This document shows positions 1-14,665 of a DNA stretch of 24,773 nt, piece by piece. A program made the position numbers and the translations under genes. Location of the stretch: positions 1 to 24,773 of the IMG/VR virus record IMGVR_UViG_3300027801_001955. One strand, given 5' to 3'. The notes below the pieces were generated by a model. The model was given only the letters and a program-made list of their open reading frames with translations. It had not been told where the DNA came from and made no database searches. The stretch comes from a virus. The first letter of the stretch is position 1, and each line of letters opens with the position of its first letter.

Positions 1-651
1 GCTCGAACCGACGACATTGGCGGTGATTGGTGTTGTTGCTTGATTGGATTTTGAACCCCAATGACCAGATGCACAGGATGATTTGGTATCGGTGAAATTG
101 AACACCACATATGGTGCTTTGGCGACTTGCATATCAACCAATCCACGAACCAATTCAGCACGGGTCATTTTGACAACCAAAGTCGATTCTTCATTGTCGA
201 ACATTGGGAATTGAAAGTGGCCAGCAGCCGATTGGGGGAGAACCCAATGGTCTGGAATAGTAGCACATTCATCCTCATCGGCAGCGTGATAAACGGCGGT
301 CGCACCATTCTTTGAGGCGACCGTGATTGGCTTGTTTGCTGTGGTTTGGATATGAACAATCTGACCAGCGAACTTCGCCGATAATAATTCAGAGAATTGC
401 TTTGGTTCGATGAGAAGGATGCAATCGTCTTTCACTTTCAAAGAGGCGAGTTCACGTTCATTCACCAGCAATTGAATAGTCTTGGCGTGGTCGTGGGTCC
501 ATACGGACATTCCGTCGCTGGTGAACATGATACGCACAGGTGCGGGGTCGGTGTTCAATACCAATGAGGACAATGCCCCAGATAGGTCGGTTGCGTTGAC
601 CTTGATGTTGACGGTGCGGCTAAGTTCACTTGAGTTCGGAGTCAGGCTCAT
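1..651 (-). CDS. PCNA-like DNA sliding clamp, C-terminus cut off by window edge
   Basis: A clamp of this kind encircles DNA and tethers polymerase, ligase and nucleases. 217 residues are visible from ATG 651 and the frame is open to base 1; archaeal PCNA is usually about 245-250 residues, so perhaps 30 are missing. The pattern fits PCNA: an N-terminal beta-alpha-beta unit (NIKVNATDLSGALSSL), then SDGMSVWTHDHAKTIQLL in the place of the usual 'GL...AMD..H' strand, a linker, and a second similar domain starting near residue 155 (EESTLVVKMTRAELVRGL). The start is fixed by a TATA-like promoter 31 nt upstream and by an ATGA overlap with the methyltransferase stop codon. Identity to known PCNAs is low by eye, so this is a fold-level call. 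It closes the replication module read from 8.4 kb. Confidence 0.6.
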   Translation of the reverse strand, partial: MSLTPNSSELSRTVNIKVNATDLSGALSSLVLNTDPAPVRIMFTSDGMSVWTHDHAKTIQLLVNERELASLKVKDDCILLIEPKQFSELLSAKFAGQIVHIQTTANKPITVASKNGATAVYHAADEDECATIPDHWVLPQSAAGHFQFPMFDNEESTLVVKMTRAELVRGLVDMQVAKAPYVVFNFTDTKSSCASGHWGSKSNQATTPITANVVGSS

Positions 652-1598
652 AAATTATCGAGCCGACTCCCACCCTTATGAAGCCCAAACCATTCATCAA
701 ATGTTGCAGGCTGGGGAACATCATCTCCCGATTCAATTTGATGGCCAACGATTTTGCTCACACGAGCAGGAATTATTGCAGCGTAATCTGGATTGAGTTC
801 GATACCGATTGCGTTGCGGCCATTCCTGATTGCGACTCCGAGCGTTGTTCCAGAACCAGCAAACGGGTCCAGCACCAAACCTCCTTTTGGTGAACCAGCG
901 AGAACACATGGCTCAATCAATTCTGGTGTATAGACGGCGAAGTGTGCGCCTTTCCAACGGCTTGCGGCCACCGACCACACGCTTCGCTTGCGGCGCATCC
1001 CATCTGGTGTTTGACCCTCTCGATTGAAGTTATCCATCCACGCCACGAGACCCGTGTTGCCATTGTTCATTGAGCCATAGTGGTCGGTTTCAGCCTTCTT
1101 GGGATGCTCTCTATGTCGAGCCACCTTCTTGGTGCTAATGGCCTTCTCTTTGATGGCTTCATAGTCAAAATAATATGTCTTGGATTTGGCCAAGAGATAG
1201 ATTACTTCGTGATTGCGAGAGCATCTATCGGTTGATGGTTCTGGCATTGGATTCGGCTTCGCCCAGATGATTTCCTGACGGAGATACCACCCGTCGCTTT
1301 GAAGGGCGATAGCCAGCCGTGCTGGAACCATCTGCAATTGCTTGTCAACATAGGTATCGGAGATGTTCAACCATAGTGTTCCATCAGGCTTGAGAACTCT
1401 CTTGACTTCACGGAGTATCTCCACCATGTTGTTGATGTATTCTTCGCTTGTCGATTCCCGACCAATCTCCTTCATGGACTCGCCGTATTCACGCAAGCCC
1501 CAATATGGTGGAGATGTGATGCAGGTGTTGACGGTCTCATCGGAGATGGTTCTCAATCGTGAGAGCGCATCCCCGACTTCGACCGTGAACTTGACCAT
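648..1598 (-). CDS. DNA methyltransferase (N4-cytosine or N6-adenine), beta class
   Basis: Transfers a methyl group from S-adenosylmethionine to an exocyclic amino group of DNA. Of 316 residues, the catalytic motif IV (SPPYW, residues 29-33) comes first and the SAM-binding motif I (LDPFAGSGTT, about residues 242-252) comes near the C-terminus; this order is typical of beta-class enzymes of the N6/N4 MTase family. SPPY is common in N4-cytosine enzymes but also occurs in phage N6-adenine enzymes, so the target base is open. No restriction endonuclease gene is adjacent, so it looks like an orphan viral enzyme, perhaps for protection from host restriction. A GGGTGGG-type promoter sits 31 nt before ATG 1598. 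The stop overlaps the clamp start (ATGA). Confidence 0.9.
   Translation of the reverse strand: MVKFTVEVGDALSRLRTISDETVNTCITSPPYWGLREYGESMKEIGRESTSEEYINNMVEILREVKRVLKPDGTLWLNISDTYVDKQLQMVPARLAIALQSDGWYLRQEIIWAKPNPMPEPSTDRCSRNHEVIYLLAKSKTYYFDYEAIKEKAISTKKVARHREHPKKAETDHYGSMNNGNTGLVAWMDNFNREGQTPDGMRRKRSVWSVAASRWKGAHFAVYTPELIEPCVLAGSPKGGLVLDPFAGSGTTLGVAIRNGRNAIGIELNPDYAAIIPARVSKIVGHQIESGDDVPQPATFDEWFGLHKGGSRLDNL
669..682 (-). promoter_or_regulatory. TATA-like promoter, TTCATAAGGGTGGG class, for the clamp gene
   Basis: On the minus strand this reads TTCATAAGGGTGGG, with its first T exactly 31 nt before the A of the clamp ATG at 651. The same word at the same distance precedes the SSB-like and AAA+ helicase genes. 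It lies inside the last codons of the methyltransferase gene, so promoter and coding sequence are superimposed. Confidence 0.65.
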
Positions 1599-1638: not shown

Positions 1639-2112
1639 TCAGTTATCACGAAGGTATGTATAAGCATCCCATTCTGAAACCTTGACTCCAAGTGCAGCCT
1701 CACACGCTCTTAATTGGCGGTTCAATACTGCACGGCGACGGTTGATGCTTGAGCGAGATGCTTCTCCATCACAGGAGATGTTCTCTGGACTCAATCCGCA
1801 ATAGATGTTGCTGATTTGCTCGAATATCTCTTTATCGGTTGAAGCGACTTTGAACTCTCCCTTGTTGAGAATTGAAACAATGTCTTCACCAGATTCTGGC
1901 GCATCAACATTTGAATCGAGGATGGTGATGAATCGTGCATCCATTGGCACAGTCCATACGGTTCCGATACTGTGGGTCTTTTGACGACCACGAATCTCGG
2001 TTTGTTCGATTTTGACTTTTGTTCGGTTCACCTTAACGATTTTGCCGATTGTCTTTTCACCATTTGGTCGCCCAAATGATACTTTCATTCCTGTGGTGTA
2101 TTCTTGGCTCAT
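1639..2112 (-). CDS. 157-aa protein with an SH3/KOW-like N-terminal domain
   Basis: No family is recognised with certainty. Residues about 8-60 form an alternating beta pattern rich in G, K and V (GMKVSFGRPNGEKTIGKIVK, then WTVPMDARF), as in small SH3/KOW-type barrels that bind nucleic acid or protein. The C-terminal half is helical and basic (SSINRRRAVLNRQLRACEAA). An upstream ATG at 2133 is open, but I chose ATG 2112: it has a GGAGATGA Shine-Dalgarno site with 5-nt spacing, the pattern used by the internal operon genes. The stop codon of a 38-codon membrane-protein gene lies 17 nt upstream, so the two are probably co-transcribed. Confidence 0.75.
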   Translation of the reverse strand: MSQEYTTGMKVSFGRPNGEKTIGKIVKVNRTKVKIEQTEIRGRQKTHSIGTVWTVPMDARFITILDSNVDAPESGEDIVSILNKGEFKVASTDKEIFEQISNIYCGLSPENISCDGEASRSSINRRRAVLNRQLRACEAALGVKVSEWDAYTYLRDN

Positions 2113-2129
2113 AATTTTCATCTCCTGTT

Positions 2130-2246
2130 TCAATATATTTCAATAACCTCGCACATTAACAATGGCAACCAAACAAATGTCAAGGGAATCAATGGTATTA
2201 CCATGATGCACCAGACGGTGGCTGGGATGCGTATTAGTGGGGTCAT
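2130..2246 (-). CDS. 38-aa hydrophobic, probably single-pass membrane microprotein
   Basis: A small ORF starting with ATG 2246 and ending with TGA 17 nt before the next gene. The peptide is MTPLIRIPATVWCIMVIPLI followed by PLTFVWLPLLMCEVIEIY. About 25 central residues are strongly hydrophobic, with one Arg on the N side and acidic residues at the C-terminus, which suggests one membrane segment. The main support is positional: the ATG is 29 nt downstream of TTGATATACT, and a 24-nt upstream element shared with two other genes lies just behind it. The function is unknown. Small membrane proteins in viruses may act in lysis, egress or superinfection exclusion, but nothing here separates these. 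Confidence 0.55.
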   Translation of the reverse strand: MTPLIRIPATVWCIMVIPLIPLTFVWLPLLMCEVIEIY

Positions 2247-2265: not shown

Positions 2266-2302
2266 AGTATATCAATGAATCGGTATCACAATGGTTTTGT
2301 TC
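2266..2302 (-). promoter_or_regulatory. Composite promoter: GAACAAAACCATTG element plus TATA
   Basis: The minus strand has GAACAAAACCATTGTGAT and CCGATT, then TTGATATACT, whose first T is 29 nt before ATG 2246. The element aligns almost base for base with those before the genes starting at 8810 and 14609, including a 16-nt offset between its CATTG and the TATA-like box. Confidence 0.6.
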
Positions 2303-2421: not shown

Positions 2422-2802
2422 TTATTCTGAAATCGGCGGTGCATCAAAAGCGTCTTCATGTGCAAGCCAAGTGGATTGGCCATAGGAACTTCGACCATCG
2501 AGACCTGCAACACGAACCCTGCCGGATTCCACGAACAGGTATGGTTTGTTGGCTAAGTGATTGGTCAAGGCATTCATAGAGAATGGTTGATTAGGGAGAT
2601 TGAGAACTTCTGTTGAGGATAGTGGTGTGCCATCTGGGAATGATGCGCCAGCAAGAATCATTGCTCGCCAAAGTCGTTTGATATTCCGGCCATCATGCCG
2701 ACCCAATCGGCCTTTTCGACGAGTTCCATATTTAGACGAAGGCACTTCATTTGGGTTGGGTTCGTCTTCGCTCACGGTTAAGGTGAGGAACACACCCTCC
2801 AT
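2422..2802 (-). CDS. 126-aa winged-helix-like DNA-binding protein, function unknown
   Basis: The N-terminal 30 residues are polar and proline-rich. Residues about 31-115 look like a small winged helix: a basic helix (HDGRNIKRLWRAMI), a possible recognition helix (SMNALTNHLANK), then a two-strand wing (YLFVESGRVRVAGLDGR). This suggests a transcription regulator or replication-initiation accessory protein, but no family is identified. It starts 35 nt after the stop of the Cas4-like nuclease, with no clear Shine-Dalgarno site; a weak TATA-like TTGAACTTC lies 29 nt upstream. Co-transcription with the nuclease is likely. Confidence 0.6.
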   Translation of the reverse strand: MEGVFLTLTVSEDEPNPNEVPSSKYGTRRKGRLGRHDGRNIKRLWRAMILAGASFPDGTPLSSTEVLNLPNQPFSMNALTNHLANKPYLFVESGRVRVAGLDGRSSYGQSTWLAHEDAFDAPPISE

Positions 2803-2836: not shown

Positions 2837-4012
2837 TTACAGGCGTTTGATTTTCATTGCGTTGTATGGTTTTTTGATTTCACTTGCTTTGACTTGTTCC
2901 GCCATTGCTTCTGGGAGGATAGGCAAAACACGCTCAACCGCCGATTTGGTGAGGCCAACCATCTGGCCAAATACTGCTGGAGGAACAATTTTCTGAATCT
3001 CCGATGGAATGTATTCACTTCGCTCGCCCTTCTTGAATCGACAATCCCACTTCTCTGTGGCGATTGCGGTTCCTTCTGGGTCAAGTGTGTCCATGCGGCC
3101 TTTCAAGTCCTTCTCGATAACGCTACGGCGTTTGGTGAGGATGCCTTGAGCAGCCTTGATTGTAGCAAGAGCATCGAACTGTTCATCATCGGTATCGAAC
3201 TCGGATGCCACGATATCAAACGCACCCTTATGGATGAGGTCTTGAACGGTCGGGCATAGAGATTGGTATGCACAGTATTTGCATGAATCGCCAAGAGATG
3301 GTGTTCCATGCTTGATGGTCTTGATGGTGTCATATTTGGCCTTGAGCCATAACTTGAACTCGTCAATCTGATGGTCAGTCCACACGGTTGAAACCGGACC
3401 CCATCGAATCATATCGAATGTGAATCGCAACGGTCGGTCTGGCCAAACCTGTCTCGCATATGCCAGATAGATTCCAGCCTGAACATCGGTGTCGGCTTCA
3501 GTTTGCGACTTTGGCATCCTGTTGGTTTTGTAGTCGATAAGTTCGATTGTTCCATCCTTATGTTCCAGAATCAAATCAATGAATCCGAATATGGGAACTC
3601 CATTATCCAATTTGAAAGGTGCGTTATGTTGACCCATCGGTTGCTCTGTTGAATAGACACGAACAGGCGTTTTGCCTCTGCGGTCAAACCAACGCTTGAG
3701 CATATCCTTGCCATCCTGATAGAACGTAAAGTCAACGCTGAACTCCGGCTTTGCAGCCCACTTCTCATAGCATTGCATGAGAGTTCCAAACAATGGCTTT
3801 GGTGTTGAGCCATCTGGATTCGGGCTTCGCCAATCCTCAAGTGCGCCGTGAACTACATTCCCCAATCGTGCAGCCTGCATCTCGGATGGATGATTTGACT
3901 TCTTTTTGAGGATGCGTTCAGAATCACTTGTTGGGTCATACTGAAATTGATAAGCGAGGGTGCAATCCTTTGCCATTTTCAGACGAGTCGCAGAGATGTA
4001 TGGAACTTTCAT
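2837..4012 (-). CDS. Cas4/RecB-like PD-(D/E)XK nuclease with Fe-S cysteines
   Basis: Probable single-strand DNA exonuclease for end resection in replication or recombination. The 391-residue protein has the RecB-family landmarks: an early Cys (C17), the G-x3-H motif (GNVVH, H55), the catalytic D146 (FIDLI) and D160-x-K162 (LIDYK), and the QAGIYLAYA motif (Q178, Y182). Three further cysteines in CKYCAYQSLC near residues 241-251, with C17, make the 1+3 pattern that holds a 4Fe-4S cluster in Cas4 and AddB. It is longer than a typical Cas4 (about 200) and lacks CRISPR neighbours, so a viral recombination role is likelier than spacer acquisition. The helical C-terminal 100 residues are unassigned. 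A GGGTGGG promoter lies 31 nt before the ATG. Confidence 0.88.
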   Translation of the reverse strand: MKVPYISATRLKMAKDCTLAYQFQYDPTSDSERILKKKSNHPSEMQAARLGNVVHGALEDWRSPNPDGSTPKPLFGTLMQCYEKWAAKPEFSVDFTFYQDGKDMLKRWFDRRGKTPVRVYSTEQPMGQHNAPFKLDNGVPIFGFIDLILEHKDGTIELIDYKTNRMPKSQTEADTDVQAGIYLAYARQVWPDRPLRFTFDMIRWGPVSTVWTDHQIDEFKLWLKAKYDTIKTIKHGTPSLGDSCKYCAYQSLCPTVQDLIHKGAFDIVASEFDTDDEQFDALATIKAAQGILTKRRSVIEKDLKGRMDTLDPEGTAIATEKWDCRFKKGERSEYIPSEIQKIVPPAVFGQMVGLTKSAVERVLPILPEAMAEQVKASEIKKPYNAMKIKRL

Positions 4013-6398: not shown

Positions 6399-8416
6399 GC
6401 CGAATAGTCTGGGTCGAGGGTGTCAAGGTGTGCATTCGCAATCTGTTCCCACAGGTCGGAATCGTCTGACTCAAGCGAAGTCTGGGCTATTGTTTGAACC
6501 TTCTTTCGCACCTTATTCTTGGCCTTGAGAGCATCGGTCGCAACCGCTTTCACGTTCAAATTGAGCCACGAGCAGCGTGAACCAAACAATGTTGGCTTAT
6601 GTGGGCTATCGCCAACAATATCATAGAGAACTCCTTTTGAAGTATCGGTCAAGTATGATGGGAGAATCAACGACCGCCAAACCAGCGAATCGGCTTTGGT
6701 CAAACAACCAGCCTGCTTCAATAAATCAGCATCTCCATCTCGAAGTGTCGATTTCATAATCGCTGGGAGGGCATCCTCCAGAATATCGTTGAAGTCGGCC
6801 ATTGTATTATTCAGATTCTTGCGAACCGCTTCGATAAATAATGGTGCGAGCGCATAGTTATCCATCAATCCTGTTCGGGTCTTGACTATGTTCCATGTCT
6901 TTCGACCACCTCCACGACCACCTCCACGACTCTTAACTTCGACCAAGCCCGCATCCTCCAGCGTTGGCAGATGCTTCTCCTTGAGGGCGTTCTTAGAGCA
7001 TGAGAATGCGTGAATGTGCAACCATTGGAGAATGTTATCCTCCGACAATCCTCGATTGCTGTCAACCATTTTTTTCAGTTCGTTGAAAACCATCCACGAA
7101 TCCTCTGGAACTCCAGACAGGCTGGCTCTCAAAACCAAATCGCAAAGAATCAGACCTGCAACATTATCCTCTATCGAACTCAATATGAATACTTCATCGT
7201 TTGATTCGTGTGTCGGTCGTTGATTCTGATGCAGAAGCGTGATGGTGTCAATAATCGACAACACTTTGGTGATGTCTCGTTGGTGCTGTGCCGATGTTGA
7301 TGGAAAAAAGTCAGCCATCAATGGTGCGAATATATTCCGAACTCGTTGGTTTTGTAATTTCAACATGGATGCTTGAAGCAGATGCAAATCGGGATGAAGT
7401 GATAATTCTTCTGGGCGAGCCTTTGCTCGGAGAGTATTGAAGACAACCGCTTCAACCTTGTCAGGTGTGGTGTCAGGAGTCATTAGTAATTGACGGGTGA
7501 TTTGTTCTTCTTCACTTGGATTGCGAGTCGTCAGCGTGATGAATGAAGGTTGACCACGAATGATGAAATCACGGGTTTCAATCTCGCCGGTCATTTCATT
7601 CTTGATTGGGGTTTTCCACAGCAATTCTTTATCATCACCAGACATCAACGGCTTCATTCGGCGCATGAATTGAAGAGATTCATCCTTTTCCAGAATCACG
7701 ATGCAGCGATTCCCGACATTGACGATATACTCACCATCGTCGCTCACTTCGTCATAATCATATTTCAGAGCCTCTTTGGATGCACCGGCCAAGACCATGC
7801 ACATTGACTTGGGGAATCCATTCCGAGCCGTCAATGTCAAGTATGTTTTTCCAGATGATGATGCGCCAATCATTTCCAGATTCAAAGGATGCTCGGTCTT
7901 GCATGACAGGAAAACCAAGAATGTCAACAGCAGGTTGGCATCATCACCAATGAATGGAGTCAATCGTGAACTGTGAAGAATCTCATTTATTCTGTCCAAC
8001 AGATTTTTCTGGTTCAGGAACGTATCAACCGTATTGGAGTCAATAACACCTAATGACGAACTGCGGCCTTCATATTCATTTTGCTCAATCTCGATTCTAT
8101 CTGGCATTGCTGCTGGAACATAGTCGCCATTTTGAAGAGAGATTCCGACCGACAATCCGGCGGTGATGAAATCGGATTTTATTGAATCCTCTAATTTCAA
8201 TGCCTTCGCCAATCGGGCGAGAGAATGCTGTGAGAGGACATTGAACTTGCCAAGTGGCTTGCCTTCATATTCGGCGGTGAAGTCCATCCGACCCTTCGCA
8301 GATGATAGGAATGTGAATGCCATATCGAATCCAGCGATAGTCGATTCATAGCGGCTCGCTGCATCTGCAGATTGCCTAACGATTGGCTTGCTCGGTGTAG
8401 CATCTGCATCCGTCAT
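6392..8416 (-). CDS. AAA+/SF3-like replicative helicase with winged-helix region
   Basis: Probable DNA helicase for viral replication. Of 674 residues, the P-loop is GASSSGKT (184-191). A hydrophobic strand ending in acids (CIVILEKDES) is the likely Walker B, and ITLTTRNPSEEEQITRQL carries a sensor-1 Asn and a candidate arginine finger. This GxSSSGKT layout resembles the phage and plasmid 'primase-helicase' AAA+ group and, more distantly, MCM. After the ATPase a winged helix (LPTLEDAGLVEVKSR) has an odd Gly/Arg wing (GGGRGGGR, about 496-505). No archaeo-eukaryotic primase motif is seen in the N-terminal 180 residues, so priming activity is not supported. It is first in the replication cluster, with its own promoter. 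Confidence 0.75.
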   Translation of the reverse strand: MTDADATPSKPIVRQSADAASRYESTIAGFDMAFTFLSSAKGRMDFTAEYEGKPLGKFNVLSQHSLARLAKALKLEDSIKSDFITAGLSVGISLQNGDYVPAAMPDRIEIEQNEYEGRSSSLGVIDSNTVDTFLNQKNLLDRINEILHSSRLTPFIGDDANLLLTFLVFLSCKTEHPLNLEMIGASSSGKTYLTLTARNGFPKSMCMVLAGASKEALKYDYDEVSDDGEYIVNVGNRCIVILEKDESLQFMRRMKPLMSGDDKELLWKTPIKNEMTGEIETRDFIIRGQPSFITLTTRNPSEEEQITRQLLMTPDTTPDKVEAVVFNTLRAKARPEELSLHPDLHLLQASMLKLQNQRVRNIFAPLMADFFPSTSAQHQRDITKVLSIIDTITLLHQNQRPTHESNDEVFILSSIEDNVAGLILCDLVLRASLSGVPEDSWMVFNELKKMVDSNRGLSEDNILQWLHIHAFSCSKNALKEKHLPTLEDAGLVEVKSRGGGRGGGRKTWNIVKTRTGLMDNYALAPLFIEAVRKNLNNTMADFNDILEDALPAIMKSTLRDGDADLLKQAGCLTKADSLVWRSLILPSYLTDTSKGVLYDIVGDSPHKPTLFGSRCSWLNLNVKAVATDALKAKNKVRKKVQTIAQTSLESDDSDLWEQIANAHLDTLDPDYSAS

Positions 8417-8459: not shown

Positions 8460-8810
8460 TCAGAAGGTGCGTGGGTCCACGCCAACGAATGCGACTTCTT
8501 GGTTAAGAACATCATAGACGACGAACTCGGTTGTTCGGTAGCCCCACCATGTAGTAGTGTTGCTGTTCATAAAAGTGATAGTGTCGGTGATGGTTTTGGA
8601 TGATAGTGAAGCGATTGCTTGAGACCAGACGATTTGCTCGCCATCTGCGCTCATGTGCAATTTGGCACGGTTCGCAGCGTTGAACTTCTCTTGGTCAGCA
8701 ACGACCATAACGCCAGCGACTCGGTATTGCTTCTTGGACTTCGACTTCATTGCCTGTGCAATCATAAGGTCGAGGTTGTTGGTTCGGGCGGAGTCAGTTT
8801 GTTGGCTCAT
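8460..8810 (-). CDS. 116-aa protein of unknown function under a composite promoter
   Basis: I do not recognise this family. The N-terminal 30 residues are polar and helical (MSQQTDSARTNNLDLMIAQA), then a basic patch KSKSKKQYR. The rest is beta-rich with aromatics (TTTWWGYRTTEFVVYDV). There is no signal peptide or membrane segment. A longer reading from 8855 is open, but ATG 8810 is chosen because it is 29 nt from a clean TATA box (CTTATAAGGG) and the added residues would be promoter sequence. The gene is alone: the ten-gene operon ends upstream and the helicase gene has its own promoter downstream. It shares its upstream element with the genes starting at 2246 and 14609. Confidence 0.7.
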   Translation of the reverse strand: MSQQTDSARTNNLDLMIAQAMKSKSKKQYRVAGVMVVADQEKFNAANRAKLHMSADGEQIVWSQAIASLSSKTITDTITFMNSNTTTWWGYRTTEFVVYDVLNQEVAFVGVDPRTF

Positions 8811-8829: not shown

Positions 8830-8866
8830 CCCTTATAAGAGGTTCGGTATATCAATGGTTCTGTTC
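8830..8866 (-). promoter_or_regulatory. Composite promoter: GAACAGAACCATTG element plus TATA
   Basis: The minus strand reads GAACAGAACCATTGATATACC and GAACCT, then CTTATAAGGG 29 nt before ATG 8810. It overlaps the 3' end of the previous gene. CATTGATATACC could itself act as a second TATA-like box 16 nt upstream of the main one. Confidence 0.65.
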
Positions 8867-14336: not shown

Positions 14337-14609
14337 TCAATAGAAGTTCATGTCCACATAGCAATATGCCAAGTGGTCAATGAATCCGTGAATTGCGTTT
14401 GGGTTTGAGAACTCAATTTTGCGAATCATGTTTGCGATGTTCTCTTGTTCTTTTGCTGGTGCAACATTGAGAACCATGTCGATAACAGCGGAGGATTCAA
14501 TCATGTGGATTGCTGACCTGTCGCCAAAGTCATACACGAAGTTCACCGTGATGATGCGTTCTGGGAGGTTGCGCTCGTTGAAGTATGTGCGGAGGTATTG
14601 GCTGCTCAT
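14337..14609 (-). CDS. 90-aa protein of unknown function under a composite promoter
   Basis: Starts at ATG 14609, 29 nt after ACTATAAGGG; the longer frame from 14705 crosses the promoter and is rejected. The product begins MSSQYLRTYFNERNLPERII, continues with a beta strand (VNFVYDFGDRSAIHM), then a helix with many Ala, Glu and Asn (NVAPAKEQENIANMIRKIEF) and an aromatic end (YCYVDMNFY). It looks like a small soluble alpha/beta protein. It follows the giant tail gene but has its own strong promoter, so it is probably expressed separately. Confidence 0.65.
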   Translation of the reverse strand: MSSQYLRTYFNERNLPERIITVNFVYDFGDRSAIHMIESSAVIDMVLNVAPAKEQENIANMIRKIEFSNPNAIHGFIDHLAYCYVDMNFY

Positions 14610-14628: not shown

Positions 14629-14665
14629 CCCTTATAGTATGTTCGGAATCTCAATGGTTTTGTTC
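14629..14665 (-). promoter_or_regulatory. Composite promoter: GAACAAAACCATTG element plus TATA
   Basis: The minus strand reads GAACAAAACCATTGAGATTCC and GAAC, then ACTATAAGGG 29 nt before ATG 14609. About 20 bp further upstream is a near-perfect inverted repeat (14686-14703: GATATTGA, two bases, TCAATATC) in the gap after the giant gene. Confidence 0.65.

Follow-up and report, generated by a model that had tools for sequence, protein, structure and literature searches.

The locus at positions 2130-2246 raises the question of whether an open reading frame (ORF) of only 38 codons is a real gene and, if so, what so small a product would do for the virus that carries it. The window, namely the whole stretch of DNA analysed here, is a virus record of 24,773 bp and contains 308 ORFs of at least 30 aa, and so ORF length taken alone is uninformative. 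The product read from 2246 to 2130 on the minus strand, 38 codons followed by TGA, is MTPLIRIPATVWCIMVIPLIPLTFVWLPLLMCEVIEIY, and this microprotein and its orthologues are referred to as family A. The locus is organised as follows:

2837-4012, minus strand: PD-(D/E)XK exonuclease gene
2422-2802, minus strand: conserved 126-aa gene (ORF126) without family match, upstream of a variable slot
2267-2302, minus strand: composite promoter, GAACAAAACCATTGTGATACCGA (2302-2280; upstream element 2295-2280) plus the TATA-like box TGATATAC (2274-2267)
2130-2246, minus strand: family A microprotein gene, 38 aa, predicted single span, ATG at 2246 and TGA at 2132-2130
2122-2126, minus strand: AGGAG, Shine-Dalgarno-like site of the second cistron, immediately past the microprotein stop
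1639-2112, minus strand: second cistron, 157 aa, ATG at 2112, no Pfam or PHROG match at E 0.01
648-1598, minus strand: N6/N4 DNA methyltransferase gene, third gene downstream
1-651, minus strand: sliding-clamp (PCNA-like) gene, truncated by the window edge, matching the clamp of the relative L002 at 70%

Intact orthologues are present in two further lineages, one of 38 aa with 71% identity to the window microprotein (L002:5873-5989) and the other of 42 aa with 61% identity (L009:6508-6636, in L009/L010). Comparison of the window with L002 has shown that the ORF, with 84 of 117 identical nucleotides (72%), is the best-conserved block of the compared stretch. Identity drops to 46/119 (39%) in the upstream intergenic DNA and to 3/17 in the spacer, with intermediate values for the promoter stretch (31/56, 55%) and for the beginning of the following gene (71/123, 58%). 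The substitutions between these two microprotein genes are distributed 8/4/21 over the three codon positions, so that 21 of 33 are at third positions (binomial P 3.5e-4); the third-position count between the window and L009 is weak when taken alone and is not significant (17/37, P 0.075). The NG86 dN/dS ratio, computed without the first two codons, is 0.13 for window-L002, 0.34 for window-L009 and 0.17 for L002-L009. The preliminary description had proposed a real 38-residue gene and had named conservation, third-position bias and a search for stops and frameshifts as its checks; no stop or frameshift was found in the relatives carrying the ORF. The frame is kept in these relatives and selection acts at the protein level, and so, as far as the comparison of sequences goes, the ORF is a real protein-coding gene under purifying selection, which bears out that proposal.

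Only three lineages with family A, the window included, are known. Of 12 related records, 3 carry it, a near-identical pair among them, and on this distribution the gene is patchy and optional; here and below, such counts take near-identical loci separately (the L011 group, the L085 group and L009/L010). No additional member with a convincing E-value emerged when 38,276 open frames were searched with a profile. A first pattern scan of viral_contigs returned four stretches, the three true contigs and L020, the last of which was rejected as an arginine-rich chance match, and a second pattern returned eight, three true and five unrelated.

The maximum 19-residue hydropathy of the microprotein, 2.29 on the Kyte-Doolittle scale, is the highest among the 189 ATG ORFs of 30-50 aa in the window. 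An AlphaFold2 model built from a three-sequence alignment (A4) has helices at residues 9-16 and 19-36 with a break near P18 (mean pLDDT 77, pTM 0.36). Among the residues unchanged in all three sequences are PLIRIPA (3-9), W12, L19, PLT (21-23), WLPL (26-29) and VIEI (34-37). Hydropathy and this moderate-confidence helix model agree on one hydrophobic helix of membrane length, suggesting that the microprotein is likely to be a single-span membrane protein, as had been predicted at the outset. It would insert into the cytoplasmic membrane as a single kinked helix, probably with its N-terminus inside and its C-terminus outside, R6 lying ahead of the span and E33/E36 behind it; this topology call is based on few charges, and the L002 copy lacks E33 and terminates in R38. 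Searches of Pfam, PHROGs, PADLOC and PDB sequences gave no useful match for the microprotein, the PDB search returning a single one at E 4.

The relative G002 encodes an HK97-type capsid, portal, prohead protease, terminase, tape measure, RFC-like clamp loader and family-B polymerase, and the combination of HK97-type capsid, portal, terminase and tape measure with archaeal-type replication genes places it among the archaeal tailed viruses (Caudoviricetes). The top-ranked matches of the polymerase in the phage collection are haloarchaeal tailed viruses at 21-24% identity. The 281-aa clamp gene beside the slot (L002:6455-7300) was not detected by Pfam or PDB sequence search and is visible by its predicted fold alone, which is that of a sliding clamp (pLDDT 86) with Thermococcus PCNA as the best Foldseek match (E 4.3e-13) and bacterial DnaN also ranking high. 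Because of the G002 gene set, the polymerase matches and the clamp fold, the host is likely to be an archaeon. A member of the Poseidoniales is suspected; ORF126 and capsid profiles gave no provirus or host match in genome_contigs, and for the named Poseidoniales virus families, including Magrovirales, the phages collection gave none or just distant matches (for ICTV profiles of Poseidoniales viruses, see PMC13108676 and PMC12999244). In the accessible part of its text, the magrovirus paper PMC10160649 makes no mention of lysis, holin, PCNA, sliding clamp, promoter or transmembrane. Likewise, the accessible text of the literature on magroviruses, on archaeal virus lysis, holins and exclusion, on leaderless promoters and on small leaderless membrane proteins does not describe the microprotein, which is not proof of its being unpublished.

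Measured from the first C of CCGA in the composite promoter, the distance to the microprotein ATG is 37 nt in all three lineages. Two other composite sites in the window have the same distance:

8844-8859, minus strand: second composite-promoter element, ATG of its gene at 8810, 37 nt
14643-14658, minus strand: third composite-promoter element, ATG of its gene at 14609, 37 nt

Across the window and 80 kb from each of G002 and G004, an ATG follows CCGA by 37 or 38 nt at 3/3 perfect sites, at 7/10 sites with up to one mismatch, at 13/19 with up to two and at 21/37 with up to three, the background being 4.8%. The element, with up to three mismatches allowed, was found in all ten records searched, with one control match in total. 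The claim of a composite promoter at the right distance is thus confirmed by this group-wide peak; "strong promoter", as it had also been called, holds as a good match to the family consensus and can mean nothing beyond that. Since the ATG sits at the group-wide promoter distance, with the TATA-like box about 28 nt before it, the microprotein mRNA would be leaderless, its 5' end being the ATG itself. The fixed distance also provides a simple rule for spotting such genes in uncultured genomes.

Plain TATA-GGGTGGG promoters are found in the window at 681, 4042, 6397 and 8446 (minus), the first belonging to the clamp gene, and composite promoters at 2295, 8859 and 14658 (minus), the microprotein gene being of the composite type. 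Both types were followed in five long contigs (G002, G004, G011, G023 and G028), records of 78-82 kb that were covered up to the last 1,411 bases of G023 and the last 646 of G028. Plain sites lie directly before certain genes, at 8-66 nt measured to the match edges. In the window, G002 and G004, they precede the exonuclease, 456-aa, 670-aa and clamp genes, to which RFC is added in G002 and G004; in G011, they precede the genes for clamp, RFC, PolB and helicase as well as two others; and in G028, they precede one core replication-type gene only. With patterns tuned on the window's clade, none was found in G023. Of the ten plain sites in G002, half immediately precede the clamp, RFC, exonuclease, 456-aa or 670-aa gene; the other five are elsewhere, one of them (61784) among structural genes. 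The composite type, for which the same clade-tuned patterns gave no site in G028, precedes many small unannotated genes, some of them antisense inside the structural region (G002, G004), in agreement with the earlier suggestion that the microprotein shares its promoter with other genes of unknown function. In G002, G004 and G011 it also stands 400-857 nt ahead of the largest gene, which encodes about 2,300 aa, and it precedes the ORF leading into terminase in two of the five long contigs, G002 and G004. A distinct infection phase, read from this promoter in the preliminary description, is partly supported, insofar as the composite type differs from the plain promoters before core replication genes and is used on the terminase side in those two contigs, but the terminase-side site was not detected in G011, G023 or G028, and plain promoters are not limited to replication genes. 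Separate timing of genes with plain and with composite promoters during infection is what the promoter sequences would predict, and this prediction is testable.

The usual gene order at the locus is exonuclease, ORF126, variable genes and clamp. Among 35 clamp loci, three carry family A in the gap between ORF126 and the clamp and five, four of them near-identical, carry an unrelated family B, and within the limits of the script no other short high-hydropathy ORF was seen in that gap. Family B microproteins are about 35 aa long and have a predicted single span; members include:

L085:6714-6821: family B microprotein gene
L090, end at 7225: family B microprotein gene, 35 aa
L131, minus strand: family B microprotein gene
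L141:12236-12376: family B microprotein gene

They resemble family A in the slot, in the single span and, in the L085 type, in a TATA box at -28, and differ from it in their unrelated sequence and in a positively charged C-terminal end, G-x-[IL]-T-[VIL]-R-[QR]; the L090 type has a Shine-Dalgarno-like GGAGG upstream, with no -28-type TATA seen. Family B is additionally found away from the slot in G028, in two copies. Since an unrelated 35-aa protein occupies the same slot in 5 of the 35 clamp loci, the position appears to be a swappable accessory one. The L011-type contigs retain the composite promoter at the same place, but the gene started there is a different one of 181 aa. Downstream, an orthologue of the 157-aa cistron trails the microprotein in L002, whereas the next gene in L009 is unrelated, and because the cistron behind it differs in this way, family A is not the leader of one gene. 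Separately, the 157-aa protein has a C-terminal SPENISCDGE-type motif in common with proteins of the otherwise different virus contigs L001 and L003-L007.

In a census of hydrophobic ORFs of 24-75 aa with ATG starts only and a TATA-like box at -33 to -22, the window, G002 and G004 yielded family A, G023 yielded family B, and G002, G004 and G011 yielded a 64-69-aa protein beside the portal. Its further hits were, in the window, a start codon inside the microprotein gene and an ORF running antisense to a different gene, and, in G004, two minus-strand ORFs overlapping other genes; no ORF of this description was found in G028. Because the census of G011 gave the 68-aa portal-side protein as its sole hit, G011, which is of the L011 type, appears to be without a replacement microprotein of this kind. 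The portal-side proteins are represented by two genes:

L060:5836-6045, minus strand: 69-aa small membrane-type protein, relatives in 5 of 5 long contigs
L060:5562-5855, minus strand: 97-aa small membrane-type protein, relatives in 4 of 5 long contigs

Both combine a hydrophobic stretch with a charged, coiled-coil-like remainder. Their genes lie on the portal side, and in four of the five long contigs they are placed between portal and terminase; in G002, G004 and G011, genes of the 69-aa type are preceded by a TATA-like box at -29/-30. We take the two to resemble holin/XhlA-type proteins, a likeness that found no support in Pfam or PHROGs. Because of their position and conservation, they appear to be better lysis candidates than the microprotein. 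The pair adjoins a PAPS-reductase-like gene on the opposite strand (L060:6116-6994, plus strand; phrog_424) in G002.

The candidate function that carries about half of our belief is that of an accessory membrane effector. The microprotein gene would be the first cistron transcribed from its own composite promoter, an accessory that an archaeal-type tailed virus carries optionally, in the manner of a cassette. Its product would most likely bind or perturb some component of the host membrane in the course of infection, superinfection exclusion and host-membrane modulation being examples. Putative exclusion, which the preliminary description had suggested alongside lysis, is the leading example of such an action; the action itself is a guess about as good as the toss of a coin. 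An effector acting on the host membrane is favoured because of the patchiness of the gene, its own promoter, its changing neighbours, its unrelated replacement and the portal-side pair as better lysis candidates. An optional accessory gene with its own promoter is also what is expected of the exclusion type: superinfection-exclusion or moron-type small membrane proteins are like the microprotein in size class, in having their own promoter, and in being patchy, optional and replaceable at one locus. The microprotein differs from them in having no sequence match to a named family, and the usual exclusion proteins are longer than 38 aa. Type I toxin peptides such as TisB and Fst are similar in size and hydrophobicity; unlike the situation for these toxins, no opposing promoter of either pattern is present on the other strand at the microprotein locus. 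Release and exclusion in archaeal tailed viruses are little understood, and genes of 35-45 codons are easily overlooked.

The composite promoter counts in part against the effector, since it is common to the terminase-side operon in two contigs and would suit a late lysis gene too. As a lysis protein, the microprotein would be a single-span peptide that accumulates and collapses the membrane late, in the manner of a holin or a single-gene lysis protein, and it is like these in being a short peptide with one hydrophobic helix. Its four prolines, the promoter shared with the ORF-terminase operon of G002 and G004, and the unrelated microprotein occupying the slot in some relatives fit such a role, lysis proteins being likewise swapped between relatives. 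The microprotein gene, however, lies between exonuclease/ORF126 and the clamp, at a variable position within the replication region and not adjoining structural genes, Pfam and PHROGs gave no holin or other lysis family match, and the gene is missing from L011-type relatives. Because it is missing from a close relative without a like replacement, and because a portal-side membrane protein of the 69-aa type is present in all five long contigs (its 97-aa partner in four), lysis is less likely, and we regard it as doubtful. The archaeal virus-associated pyramid protein (PVAP) is also a small viral membrane protein, with a role in egress; according to the available text of PMC4456609, it is about 10 kDa and its C-terminal domain forms an inner protein sheet, whereas the microprotein, at 38 aa, has nearly no soluble part. 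Putative archaeal-virus holins have been proposed by structure comparison in a 2025 survey, the available text of which describes validation as pending (PMC12596118). A broader and rather unlikely proposal is that marine archaeal tailed viruses lyse or seal their hosts via leaderless one-helix microproteins, families A and B being cassettes that replace one another. This would be an archaeal equivalent of single-gene lysis; if real, such a system would have escaped annotation because of its small size.

In all three lineages the gene has the exonuclease/ORF126 pair on one side and the PCNA-like clamp on the other, which raises the further possibility that the microprotein is a membrane anchor or regulator for the surrounding replication genes, tethering the replisome or the clamp to the membrane. 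Membrane-bound phage replication proteins exist, but the promoter type of the microprotein differs from that of its replication neighbours, the gene is missing in relatives that retain exonuclease, ORF126 and clamp, and few residues remain beyond the span for partner binding, which make an anchor improbable. The ORF could also act in regulation, as an upstream ORF or leader peptide through whose translation the 157-aa cistron is controlled, since it is a short first cistron immediately ahead of a Shine-Dalgarno-like site and the next ATG. Selection at the amino-acid level across the ORF argues against this, and L009 keeps the microprotein though its next gene is unrelated; because the next gene changes, leader function is very unlikely. 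That the ORF arose by chance within the 5' UTR of the 157-aa gene, as the abundance of short ORFs in the window might suggest, has a negligible probability and is rejected by the conservation of the protein in three lineages, above that of its flanks, and of the ATG-promoter distance.

At the 3' end of the microprotein gene, the DNA GTTATTGAAATATATTGAA...AGGAGATGAA is common to the window (about 2148-2119, minus strand) and L009 (about 6613-6650), the genes that follow being unrelated, and this shared stretch may be the mark of a recombination joint.
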